This document shows, in pieces, positions 8,556 to 12,714 of a stretch of 64,000 bases of DNA. Source of the stretch: Leptospiraceae bacterium (GTDB lineage: Bacteria; Spirochaetota; Leptospiria; Leptospirales; Leptospiraceae); NCBI GenBank assembly GCA_022402465.1, contig JAKRSH010000022.1:62001-126000 (forward strand), read 5' to 3'. The notes beneath the pieces were generated by a model. The model saw only the letters and a list, made by a program, of their open reading frames with translations. It did not search any database and was not told the origin of the DNA. Position 1 is the first letter of the stretch, and every line of letters starts with the position of its first letter. Made by a program: the position numbers and the translations under genes.

Positions 8556-9170
8556 ATGGCAAAAGGCTACCATAGTAGATCACCAGAAGAATTCAAAGAA
8601 TATTTGCAAAATCTTCAAAATACAAAGAGGAAGAAGAATTGGAAACAAATAGTAATTTTTATTGACATCATCTTATTGATGTTAATTTTTTATTTTGTAT
8701 ACCAAAATATAAATCCAGGTATTTTAAATTCCTCAACACGATCCGACTTTGTGACTTGGAATCAGGCTAAGCTTAGCTTAAGTGTGTCTCAATACAATAC
8801 TTCTGCTAATACTTTAACCTATCTACTAGTAGAAAATCCTACGAATACTTCATTTGAATTCCCTGAACCCAATCTTGAGTATTCGTATTATTGGAAAACT
8901 GAAAAAAGAGAAACCTGTAAATTTTCCCAATACAAAATAGAAATAACAAAAAGAAATATCCCAGCTCATACTTCCACTGTTATCGAAATTCCAATTCCTT
9001 CACCCGAATCAAACTCTAAGATTCCAGAATGCAATAAAGAATATCTGGCTAAAAAATCTAAATTTGGGATAGGAGCATTAAAAAGTAAAATATTGCTACT
9101 TGGCTTTATTATAAAAGATCCCAAGGAACAAGAAATTGTTTTAGAAATCCCTTGGAACCCTTATAGATAA
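8556..9170 (+). CDS. Single-pass membrane protein, unknown function
   Basis: This 204-residue protein has a basic cytoplasmic N-terminus (KRKKNWK) and one transmembrane segment (IVIFIDIILLMLIFYFVY, about residues 32-50). A strand-rich outer domain follows, with LTYLLVENPTNTSFEFPEP resembling an Ig-like or LEA-type fold. Two or more cysteines (ETCKF, IPECN) might form a disulfide. It starts one base after the nnrD stop and its end is three bases from the convergent ppk2 gene. I do not recognise a named family. Confidence 0.78.
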   Translation: MAKGYHSRSPEEFKEYLQNLQNTKRKKNWKQIVIFIDIILLMLIFYFVYQNINPGILNSSTRSDFVTWNQAKLSLSVSQYNTSANTLTYLLVENPTNTSFEFPEPNLEYSYYWKTEKRETCKFSQYKIEITKRNIPAHTSTVIEIPIPSPESNSKIPECNKEYLAKKSKFGIGALKSKILLLGFIIKDPKEQEIVLEIPWNPYR

Positions 9171-9173
9171 TTT

Positions 9174-9884
9174 CTACTTGCAGTGTTTAATGAAATTTTC
9201 AAGAACTTGTATCCTTGCTAAATATTTATCATTGCCATTGATAATTACCCATGGCGCAAATTTAAAGTTAGTTCTTAAAAGCATTTCTTCAATTGCAGTT
9301 TCATATAAAGTCCACTTGTCTCGGTTTCTCCAGTCTTCTTCAGTTAGTTTCCATCTCTTTAGTGGATCATCTGCCCTAGCCTCAAAGCGTTCTTTTTGAA
9401 CAGTAGGATCTACATGAAGAAAAAATTTTACGATTTTGATTTGAGAATTGTAGAGATCTTCTTCGAACCATTGAATCTCCCTATAAGCTCTGCTCCATTC
9501 TTCCTCCTTAGCAAATCCTTCTACTCTCTCTACCATTATACGCCCGTACCAAGATCGATCAAAGATTCCCATAACACCTTTTTCTGGAATTCTTCTCCAG
9601 AATCTCCAAAGGTAGTTACGGGTTCTTTCCGTTGAATCTGGGGCTGCGATGTTATGTATTTCATAAAGACGAGGGTCCATCAAGCCCGTTAATCTTCGAA
9701 TAGCACCGCCTTTCCCAGCTGCATCCCAACCTTCAAAAACAACAATTATAGATTGCTTCTTTGATTGGCATTTATGCGTTATTAAGCGAGCTTTCTCTTG
9801 CAGGATTTTAAGTTTCTTTTTATATTCATCTATAGCAAGTTTTTCATCCAAATTTACACTTTTTAAGCTTAGTTGAGAATTCAT
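9174..9884 (-). CDS. PPK2-family polyphosphate kinase, catalytic
   Basis: Family members transfer phosphate between polyphosphate and nucleotides. Visible motifs are a Walker A-like loop EGWDAAGKGG (residues 51-60), the lid-region MDPRLYEIHNIAAPDSTERTRNYLWRFWRRIP, and the Walker B-like FDRSWYGR with Asp109. All are intact, so activity is expected. The 236 residues are a single domain. The start ATG overlaps the stop of the upstream degenerate PPK2 (ATGA), so the two are translationally coupled. Whether it acts on AMP, ADP or GDP cannot be told from motifs alone. Confidence 0.93.
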   Translation of the reverse strand: MNSQLSLKSVNLDEKLAIDEYKKKLKILQEKARLITHKCQSKKQSIIVVFEGWDAAGKGGAIRRLTGLMDPRLYEIHNIAAPDSTERTRNYLWRFWRRIPEKGVMGIFDRSWYGRIMVERVEGFAKEEEWSRAYREIQWFEEDLYNSQIKIVKFFLHVDPTVQKERFEARADDPLKRWKLTEEDWRNRDKWTLYETAIEEMLLRTNFKFAPWVIINGNDKYLARIQVLENFIKHCK

Positions 9885-10630
9885 TCTGTGGACTCCGTAT
9901 TTTGTAATTTTACTAGAAGTTCTTCTGAATTCACTTTTAAAACTCGCTCTAATTCATGAACTAAGATTAACATTACTTTGAGTTTTGCTTTACTACTATC
10001 TTCGGCTGCGACTGTAATCCAAGGAGCATATGGCTGGTCTGTCAATACTCTGTATGATTTAAAAATTGATTCATACTTCTTATAATTCTTAACCTGATCT
10101 TTATCTTCTTTAGTAACTTCCCAGGTCTTACCTTGTTTTTCTGCAGATTTTAATCTTTTCTCTAATTCCTTTTTTTTAAGGTCTAAAAAAAATTTAATAA
10201 ACACAACTCCATCATCGGAAAGAGTTTTTTCTAAATTTAAGATGGAGGTTTGCGCTTCGAGAAGTTTTTCTTTATTGAATTTTTTATCACGAAAGCCCTT
10301 AGTAATTCTATGGTAATAGGACTTTAATAAAAAGAGAGCATGGCCTTTTGCAGGAAAATGTTGCCAGTATTTATAAAGAAAAGGATAATGATCATCAAAA
10401 TAATCCGTGTCAATGGGAGAATAAACCTTATAGCGTTTAGGATCCATTCTATATGTGATAGATTTTAAAATTTGTCCCTTACCTGTTTGAGCCCAACCTT
10501 CTAAAATTACATAAAAAGAAATACTCTGTAAATTAGCCTCATTCTGAAGCAAGTACAATCTCTCCTGGAGATTTTCTTCTGAGATATCTATATTATTCAT
10601 ATAATTTAAAATAGGCGATAAATATACCAC
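9881..10630 (-). CDS. PPK2-like protein with degenerate catalytic motifs
   Basis: The protein clearly aligns with PPK2: VILEGWAQTGKG (residues 41-52) in place of GWDAAGKG, RMDPKRYKVYSP, YWQHFPAKGHALFLLKSYYHRI in place of FWRRIPEKGVMGIFDRSWYGRI. The Walker A Asp is Ala, and the Walker B Asp-Arg is Leu-Lys, so catalysis is unlikely. It precedes the intact PPK2 and overlaps it by 4 bases, in the same order as the two domains of fused PPK2 enzymes. The start may be GTG at 10630, with GGGAGG three bases upstream inside the previous gene, or ATG at 10600. Confidence 0.88.
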   Translation of the reverse strand: MVYLSPILNYMNNIDISEENLQERLYLLQNEANLQSISFYVILEGWAQTGKGQILKSITYRMDPKRYKVYSPIDTDYFDDHYPFLYKYWQHFPAKGHALFLLKSYYHRITKGFRDKKFNKEKLLEAQTSILNLEKTLSDDGVVFIKFFLDLKKKELEKRLKSAEKQGKTWEVTKEDKDQVKNYKKYESIFKSYRVLTDQPYAPWITVAAEDSSKAKLKVMLILVHELERVLKVNSEELLVKLQNTESTE

Positions 10631-11157
10631 CTACCTCCCTGTTTTCTAAAAATTGGATTTGCTAAATCACCTTCTAATTCTTGGTTAGCTTCAAAGAGTA
10701 TATCAAGTTCACATTCATCTTTCGAATCAAAATAATAATCAATACGTATTCCTTTAGAAAGAATTAAAATGTCTCTAACGGACCATGAGGAATCATTTTT
10801 CTTTTTTTGTCTTAGCTTGGTGGTTGAATAAAAATAAATTTCAAAGTAATTGTCAACTTCTCCAAAGCTATTTACAAATTCTTCCTTAGTCCACTGTGCT
10901 TTAAGATCTACCCAGATTCCTTGCTTAGGATGAATATCATTTGAAATTTCTAATAAATTTTTATTAAGGACAGCTTGCACCATTTTTTGAAAAAGGGCCT
11001 CGATTTCCTGCTTATCAGTTTCTTGAGCCTTCCCGTAGACAGTTCCTTTCGAAACATTCAAGGGACCATCCAACTCAGGTAAAGTTTGGCAGGTAAAAAT
11101 AATTAAAAGAAATAAGCTTCCTAAGAAGATAGTAAAATAGGTTCGTTTTGGCTGCAT
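10606..11157 (-). CDS. Small lipoprotein, NTF2-like fold suspected
   Basis: The 183-residue protein opens with a lipoprotein signal (TYFTIFLGSLFLLIIFTC) and a probable lipidated Cys at residue 23. The mature part (EIEALFQKMVQAVLNKNLLEISNDIHPKQGIWVDL ... YFEIYFYST ... GGRWYIYRLF) has the helix-then-curved-sheet pattern of NTF2/SnoaL-like domains; that fold is my guess. Its 3' end overlaps the degenerate PPK2 by 25 bases if the GTG start is used. It follows the TPR gene after 9 bases, so all four genes are probably one operon. Confidence 0.75.
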   Translation of the reverse strand: MQPKRTYFTIFLGSLFLLIIFTCQTLPELDGPLNVSKGTVYGKAQETDKQEIEALFQKMVQAVLNKNLLEISNDIHPKQGIWVDLKAQWTKEEFVNSFGEVDNYFEIYFYSTTKLRQKKKNDSSWSVRDILILSKGIRIDYYFDSKDECELDILFEANQELEGDLANPIFRKQGGRWYIYRLF

Positions 11158-11166
11158 GCTAAGATG

Positions 11167-12714
11167 CTATTCTAGAATTTTAGAGAGCATAGTGTCAAAT
11201 TCATTGCCGTTTATAAATACAAATTTTTCAGAATGTTGGCTAGCAAATTTTCTTCCACCTTCTGTAAGTTCAAAATTACCAATCAAGTATCCAACATTGG
11301 CGGAGGCTTTTTCCATTTCATTGATCATTTCGCGCAGAAAAACATCAGAAATTTTGGAATCTCGCCATTTTCTAAAACGAAATAAAGCTCTGAGTTCTTT
11401 GTTTTCCTTACTCAAGCCTGTGTAATTGACTCCATCCCCTTCTGGATTTGGTAATTCTCTGGATACGCGGAAATTAAGTCCAAGTATCATTCTGACACAG
11501 GCGTTCTTATAATTGGTTCCCTGTAAGGAAAGATATTTCTCGAATCTGTCAACTCCTACTTGGTCCAATTTTTTGATTATTTTATTGCCCCCCTCATCAA
11601 CCATACCACGTATATTAAAGGGAGCAGATGTTCTCATTCCTGATAATTCAAAATAACGAGTATTGGGAAATAATGCATGATATAATTTATTTACTTCGGC
11701 TTCTATATCATACTCGTCTTTTAATGATTCAATAGTTCCTTGTTTATTTTCTAATTTATATTTAAGATTTGCCAAACTTATTACTTCAATTTCGTTAGGA
11801 CGAAAGCTTTCCGCTTCAATTAAATATTCGGAAGCTTCTTCATATTTTCCTTCATGAACACAAAGTAATGAAAAATGAATATCAGATTCTATCGTTTCTG
11901 ATGGCCAATCATTTAGCTTAGCCATTTCCATGCAGAGTCGAGCATACTTGATCGCCTCAGAATAATTTTTCACTTTTACATTAACAGCCATTACAAATTG
12001 AAAAAGTGTAAATCTGAGATATTCATCATCAAGTTTATCAATTACTTCATCTGCAATTTTCAATGCTGCATCAAATTTTGCATCGTTTGCAAGGGAGATA
12101 GCATAAAGAAATCCAGCCACAGTTGTATTTTCCATCTTATAGGCTTTTTCAAAAAGAAATCTTTCACCATTCTTTTCTAAGGTTCCTTCAACTACTCCCT
12201 TTGCAGTAAAAAAAGAAGGAAATTGAATATTCTTAGCATTCAATCTAGAAAAAAATTGATCTGCGATTTTAAATTCTTTCTGCCCTAGTGCCATGAAGCC
12301 AAGACGAATGCATGCAGTTGGATTATTTGGTTCAATTTCTAAGGTACTTAAATATTGAAAGAAAGCTTCTTCACTCATGTCTTTATCGTAGTAGATATCC
12401 GCAACTCGATTGGAAATCTGTACTGGGTTCATATCTTTTTCAAATCTTCCGATTTGAAGAATTTTTTCTAAATGAACCGCTTCATTTAAAAAATCTCCTT
12501 CTAAGGAATAAATTTTAGCAAGTACTAAGTGCCCGCGGCTATCTCCTGGTGATAGATCCAAGCGGTCTCGTATCATAGCTCGCGCGTCCAGAAAATTACC
12601 ACTGGCTGCTAAGGATAAAGCTTTACCGTAGATATCCCTTTGGTTTTGGATAAGAAAACTTCCTACCAATCCTAAGATGATAACCCCAGTTCCTATAAGT
12701 ATGATGAACATCAT
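11167..12714 (-). CDS. Membrane-anchored TPR protein with Mrr-like C-terminal domain
   Basis: It has an N-terminal transmembrane anchor (MMFIILIGTGVIILGLVGSFLI), then helical repeats of TPR type from about 30 to 320 (FLDARAMIRDRLDLSPGDSRGHLVLAKIYSLEGDF; NNPTACIRLGFMALGQKEFKIADQFF). The last 130 residues resemble the Mrr_cat restriction-endonuclease-like fold: ALFRFRKWRDSKISDVFLREMINEMEKA, then VGYLIGNFELTEGGRKFASQHSEKFVFINGNEF. The usual QxK catalytic motif reads RFR here, so nuclease activity is doubtful. It leads the operon with the NTF2-like lipoprotein and the two PPK2 genes. Confidence 0.78.
   Translation of the reverse strand: MMFIILIGTGVIILGLVGSFLIQNQRDIYGKALSLAASGNFLDARAMIRDRLDLSPGDSRGHLVLAKIYSLEGDFLNEAVHLEKILQIGRFEKDMNPVQISNRVADIYYDKDMSEEAFFQYLSTLEIEPNNPTACIRLGFMALGQKEFKIADQFFSRLNAKNIQFPSFFTAKGVVEGTLEKNGERFLFEKAYKMENTTVAGFLYAISLANDAKFDAALKIADEVIDKLDDEYLRFTLFQFVMAVNVKVKNYSEAIKYARLCMEMAKLNDWPSETIESDIHFSLLCVHEGKYEEASEYLIEAESFRPNEIEVISLANLKYKLENKQGTIESLKDEYDIEAEVNKLYHALFPNTRYFELSGMRTSAPFNIRGMVDEGGNKIIKKLDQVGVDRFEKYLSLQGTNYKNACVRMILGLNFRVSRELPNPEGDGVNYTGLSKENKELRALFRFRKWRDSKISDVFLREMINEMEKASANVGYLIGNFELTEGGRKFASQHSEKFVFINGNEFDTMLSKILE

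Follow-up and report, generated by a model that had tools for sequence, protein, structure and literature searches.

A class II PPK2 encoded by two overlapping genes, with a degenerate N-terminal-type chain retained across a bacterial order

The two PPK2 genes at positions 9174 to 10630 of the window, the 64,000-nucleotide stretch of DNA analyzed here, raise the question of why a chain that has lost catalytic residues is encoded directly before one that has kept them. The initial annotation described the pair as a degenerate PPK2 overlapping an intact one, and the locus bears this out: two minus-strand open reading frames occupy the interval and overlap as ATGA, the upstream chain is PPK2-like yet lacks the Walker A Asp and the Walker B Asp-Arg when compared residue by residue with its neighbor, and the downstream chain has both GWDAAGKG and DRSWYGR. 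The upstream gene (the N chain; 9881-10630, minus strand) has an ambiguous start, encoding 249 residues from a GTG at 10630, which gives a 25-base overlap with the preceding gene, or 239 residues from an ATG at 10600, just past the stop of that gene. The downstream gene (the C chain; 9174-9884, minus strand) encodes 236 residues. In the Walker A motif of N, GWAQTGKG (10475-10498, minus strand), the catalytic Asp is replaced and the Lys is kept, as is MDPKRY. Its Walker B region reads LLKSYYHR (10307-10330, minus strand) against FDRSWYGR in C, so that in the aligned stretch FLLKSYYHR stands opposite IFDRSWYGR and both the Asp and the Arg are gone. The corresponding motifs of C, GWDAAGKG (9708-9731, minus strand) and DRSWYGR (9540-9560, minus strand), are intact. 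The residue that follows Walker B is Asn in class I, Gly in class II, and Glu in class III PPK2 (PMC8776046); it is Gly in the C chain and His in the N chain, and the single-domain sequences that we compared have Asn when class I-like and Glu when class III-like. By motif, then, catalytic residues have been lost from N only.

Both chains match the PPK2 family PF03976 in Pfam, at 115 bits for N and 277 bits for C. Against TIGR03708, the 493-position NCBIfam model of the two-domain polyphosphate:AMP phosphotransferase, N aligns to positions 19-239 and C to positions 258-487, one PPK2 domain for each half of the model. Both chains fall short of the whole-protein cut-off of 547.65 bits (N, 147.9; C, 345.8), and where PA3455/PAP-type enzymes are a single polypeptide of about 490 to 540 residues, this locus has two reading frames of 236 and 249 codons. 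By sequence, the closest relative with a solved structure is one such enzyme, the two-domain Pseudomonas aeruginosa PA3455 (3CZP), which the N chain matches with an E value of 5.6e-39. Modeled with AlphaFold2, the N chain has the PPK2 fold (mean pLDDT 76, pTM 0.78), and its best structural matches are class II PPK2 structures; the sole aligned partner in this prediction was the C chain, so the fold is not independent of the similarity between N and C. That fused two-domain PPK2 enzymes exist, as the initial annotation stated, is documented for PA3455, in which domains spanning residues 1-238 and 259-495 are joined by a flexible linker (PMC3163519) and the N domain is inactive and the C domain active (PMC8776046).

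The arrangement is widespread among relatives. A PF03976 search of 296 genomes of the phylum, after which the PPK2 loci were read, found 21 split pairs, all of them adjacent, on one strand, and with N before C. Seven of the eight genomes of the window's family have such a pair, and the remaining one has single-domain PPK2s only. A second family of the order has a complete pair in 12 genomes and fused genes in a few others, and it also includes G055 and G179, whose altered N parts are described below; another family of the class is divided between split (2) and fused (5); and the two-domain enzymes detected in other parts of the phylum are fused, barring a few cases at contig ends or with frameshifts. 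A sequencing error as the cause of the split is ruled out by its presence in 21 genomes, and this recurrence, together with the match of N to 3CZP, rules out chance as well. Around the window's pair, a lipoprotein-like protein with no Pfam match (10606-11157, minus strand) is encoded directly upstream of N, a TPR protein (11167-12714, minus strand) lies upstream of it, and a convergent gene (8556-9170, plus strand) faces the pair from the other side. Toward its C terminus, the TPR protein weakly resembles the Mrr catalytic domain (PF04471), scoring 19.7 bits where the cut-off is 21. Twelve genes near the pair had no match in 28 related loci, indicating that N and C are themselves the conserved unit and ruling out that their linkage reflects a conserved operon. 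The pair is retained in fixed order across a bacterial order while those neighboring genes of the window that were searched for do not recur, and because adjacent, same-order pairs occur in 21 genomes of the class without recurrence of the searched neighbors, the split of this class II PPK2 appears to be old. A search of the window's genome found no PPK2 besides this pair, and PPK1 and a Ppx/GppA protein were present in all 22 genomes checked. Outside these genomes, the only match to the N chain in a collection of genome contigs was a distant single-domain PPK2 from Flavobacteriaceae, and plasmid records gave distant PPK2 matches only, all below 60% identity and at most 32% among the matches listed.

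The ATGA at 9881-9884 (minus strand), in which the start of C overlaps the stop of N, suggests that the two genes are translationally coupled. The start of C is at -1 or +2 from the stop of N in 14 of the 21 split pairs (as ATGA, GTGA, TAATG, or TGATG, with ATGA and TAATG the usual forms), and coupling is not universal, since in three pairs the nearest C start lies at least 26 bases beyond that stop. An overlap of this kind could also hide a ribosomal frameshift that still yields a fused protein, making the split only apparent. The window does contain a TTTAAAA heptamer (9935-9941, minus strand) in the right frame, within a 70-nucleotide stretch upstream of the N stop in which the C frame is open. 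However, a slippery heptamer is found in just two of the 21 pairs, the C frame upstream of the N stop is open for 10 nucleotides or fewer, or not at all, in at least eight pairs, and most pairs provide a separate start for C at the junction. The heptamer is probably a chance occurrence in an AT-rich genome, and we reject the frameshifted product as extremely unlikely.

How the two chains arose was addressed with trees of 115 and then, more carefully, 66 domains, in which class I sequences served as the outgroup and the root was not inferred. In the 66-domain tree, split N chains cluster with the N domains of fused enzymes (86/98) and split C chains with their C domains (85/48; the tree includes just two single-domain PPK2-II sequences). 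The alignment with fused PPK2 proteins proposed in the initial annotation thus places the degenerate chain with N-terminal domains in both trees, and the outcome named there as refuting, that this chain is a recent duplicate of a single-domain PPK2, does not survive. A recent or lineage-specific duplication unrelated to fused N domains would account for two PPK2 chains in tandem, but an approximately unbiased (AU) test, under the model used, rejects a clade of the window's N and C (p 2.2e-6), ruling out recent duplication, and rejects a clade of all split N and all split C chains (p 4e-4), ruling out a duplication within the class; we give this origin next to no credence. The data do not reject one common origin for all the split N chains (p 0.28). 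The N and C chains are, by these comparisons, homologues of the N and C domains of the fused enzyme. Fission of a fused ancestor would be the simpler reading of the split, given that PA3455 and enzymes elsewhere in the phylum are fused; the alternative is an ancestor with separate genes.

Fused PPK2s also occur inside the class (L053, L056, L069, L070, L072, L074, and L075), and these cluster with PA3455 and not with the split pairs; the genes of genomes G137, G164, and G048 are among them. This suggests that they are a separate lineage, possibly acquired by horizontal transfer. Five fused two-domain PPK2s from other families of the phylum (L082, 1737-3158; L083, 2343-3929; L087, 2529-4028; L088, 2544-4055; L089, 2497-3999) have complete GWDAAGKG and DRSWYGR motifs in both domains, and because of such proteins the activity of N seems to have been lost more than once. 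A third fate of the N domain is seen in G055, whose fused PPK2 of 436 residues (L050, 2506-3813) has a shrunken N part without the Walker A Lys, and in its relative G179 (L059, 2477-3097), in which the N part is broken. The C parts of these two are an exception in the tree, clustering with fused C domains from other families.

The N chain is diverging faster than C and is nonetheless under purifying selection. Its pairwise identity is below that of C in 207 of 210 comparisons (means of 35% and 56%), and in close pairs with finite dS its dN/dS is about 0.045 (G095-G176) and 0.035 (G133-G184), comparable to C, although dS is near saturation and these values are rough. N might be the decaying remnant of a fused enzyme whose C part works alone, a reading in keeping with its rapid divergence and repeated motif loss and with the shrunken and broken N parts of G055 and G179. 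Selection in the close pairs, frames that stay open in 21 genomes, and invariant residues within an otherwise diverging chain all argue against decay, and we regard it as quite improbable.

The invariant residues include a C-terminal tail. Among the 20 split N chains of the order, 19 alignment columns are identical in 19 or more of the chains, and every one of these chains ends in a motif, LExxLxx[DN]S, that is absent from fused proteins. In the window, its core lies within ELERVLKVNS (9926-9949, minus strand; E218-S225 in the numbering from ATG 10600), in a predicted terminal helix that the AlphaFold2 model extends over residues 202-235. E218, L221, and S225 belong to the 19 columns and are present in all 20 chains, and S225 in only one of 21 fused N domains. 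Conservation of a ribosome-binding site for the downstream gene would not explain the tail, since the motif ends about 40 nucleotides before the stop of N. The two split N chains from the other family of the class lack the tail, so the fission in that family may have been independent.

A further constraint comes from a second lineage of the order (L051, L052, L054, L057, L060, L061, L062, L063, and L064), in which the P-loop of N is wholly lost (GTGLAGLVH and similar sequences) and the chain is nonetheless kept, together with LDPR and the Trp of the APW region. The Asp-Pro-Arg motif that follows Walker A is eroded in the C chains of the same lineage, all nine of which have lost its Arg and eight its Asp (e.g., PMPPVLYRV); in all nine genomes the N partner keeps Asp-Pro-Arg. 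One could imagine from this reciprocal pattern a composite enzyme in which N contributes residues to C in trans, a possibility to which we give a low probability; if true, the pseudoenzyme would supply a function shed by the catalytic chain. Since one lineage does without the P-loop, nucleotide binding is unlikely to be the function common to all N chains. The same observation weighs on the idea that N is a regulatory or sensory protein, binding polyphosphate or a nucleotide, for example, and acting partly or wholly apart from C, with adjacency serving co-regulation. With its P-loop Lys and its lid residues retained, N of the window's lineage could bind polyphosphate, and its much faster evolution than that of C would suit such a role. 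However, a whole lineage without the P-loop still has N, all 21 pairs preserve its position directly before C, and the same domain is covalently joined to C in fused forms; we consider an independent regulator unlikely.

The reading that we think probable is a heteromeric class II PPK2 made from overlapping genes, with C as the catalytic chain and N as an obligate pseudoenzyme subunit. It is favored by the match of each chain to one half of TIGR03708, the placement of both in the trees, and the rejection of duplication; by 21 adjacent N-then-C pairs without shared flanking genes found; by the purifying selection on N, its invariant split-specific tail, and its retention after loss of the P-loop; and by the PPK2 fold of the N model, the precedent of PA3455 with an inactive N and an active C domain, and the lack of any other PPK2 in the genome. 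Counted against it are the three pairs without a close C start, the two other-family pairs without the tail, and the roughness of the dN/dS values. Moreover, C might work alone, since single-domain class II PPK2s need no degenerate partner (PMC8776046). From the conservation of N, we infer that it is the partner of C. In the mechanism that we propose, the overlapping genes, probably coupled in translation, would give two proteins in place of the usual single two-domain chain, and these would assemble as a heterodimer, or a dimer of heterodimers, much as the two domains of PA3455 do. C would bind polyphosphate and AMP and yield ADP, and N, itself non-catalytic, would hold, stabilize, or regulate it. 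We speculate that the helical C-terminal tail of N serves as a docking element in place of the covalent linker.

An inactive N domain in a class II PPK2 is already known from fused PA3455; what is new here is its upkeep as a separate, diverging chain. In the accessible literature searched, we found neither a description of a split or two-gene class II PPK2 nor a stated purpose for the dead N domain of the fused enzymes. Because the dead domain is its own chain here, it can be deleted, restored, or exchanged across species with no need for truncated constructs, and what it does to assembly, chain-length preference, or regulation is directly measurable. The locus appears to be a clean example of gene fission yielding a pseudoenzyme subunit. 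PPK2-II enzymes serve in ATP regeneration, so a separable subunit, if it stabilizes or tunes the enzyme, would also be of practical use.

Set beside known systems, the pair shares the PPK2 fold and Walker motifs with single-domain enzymes of classes I and III and differs from them in the Gly that C has at the signature position, where class I has Asn and class III Glu. Single-domain class II PPK2s such as those of Bacillus cereus (9GIA) and Lysinibacillus fusiformis (9H8J) resemble C more closely, as catalytic chains that are about 240 residues long and contain GxDAAGKGG and DRSWYG. A stand-alone gene with no degenerate PPK2 beside it would mark that type; a degenerate partner adjoins C in 21 of 21 split loci, and none is described for 9GIA or 9H8J in the literature examined; the split C chains also fall with fused C domains and not with single-domain class II enzymes of this type, at weak support. 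The nearest likeness is to the fused two-domain class II enzymes described by TIGR03708, P. aeruginosa PPK2C/PA3455 (3CZP) and Acinetobacter johnsonii PAP. Like these, the pair combines an N and a C PPK2 domain, in matching order and of similar sizes, with descent from the N and C domains indicated by the trees and AU tests, an N domain that is inactive (here judged by motif), and a C domain that is intact and has the class II Gly following Walker B. Unlike them, it is made as two chains from two genes, its N domain is more degenerate, and N ends in a split-specific C-terminal tail where the fused forms have a linker.
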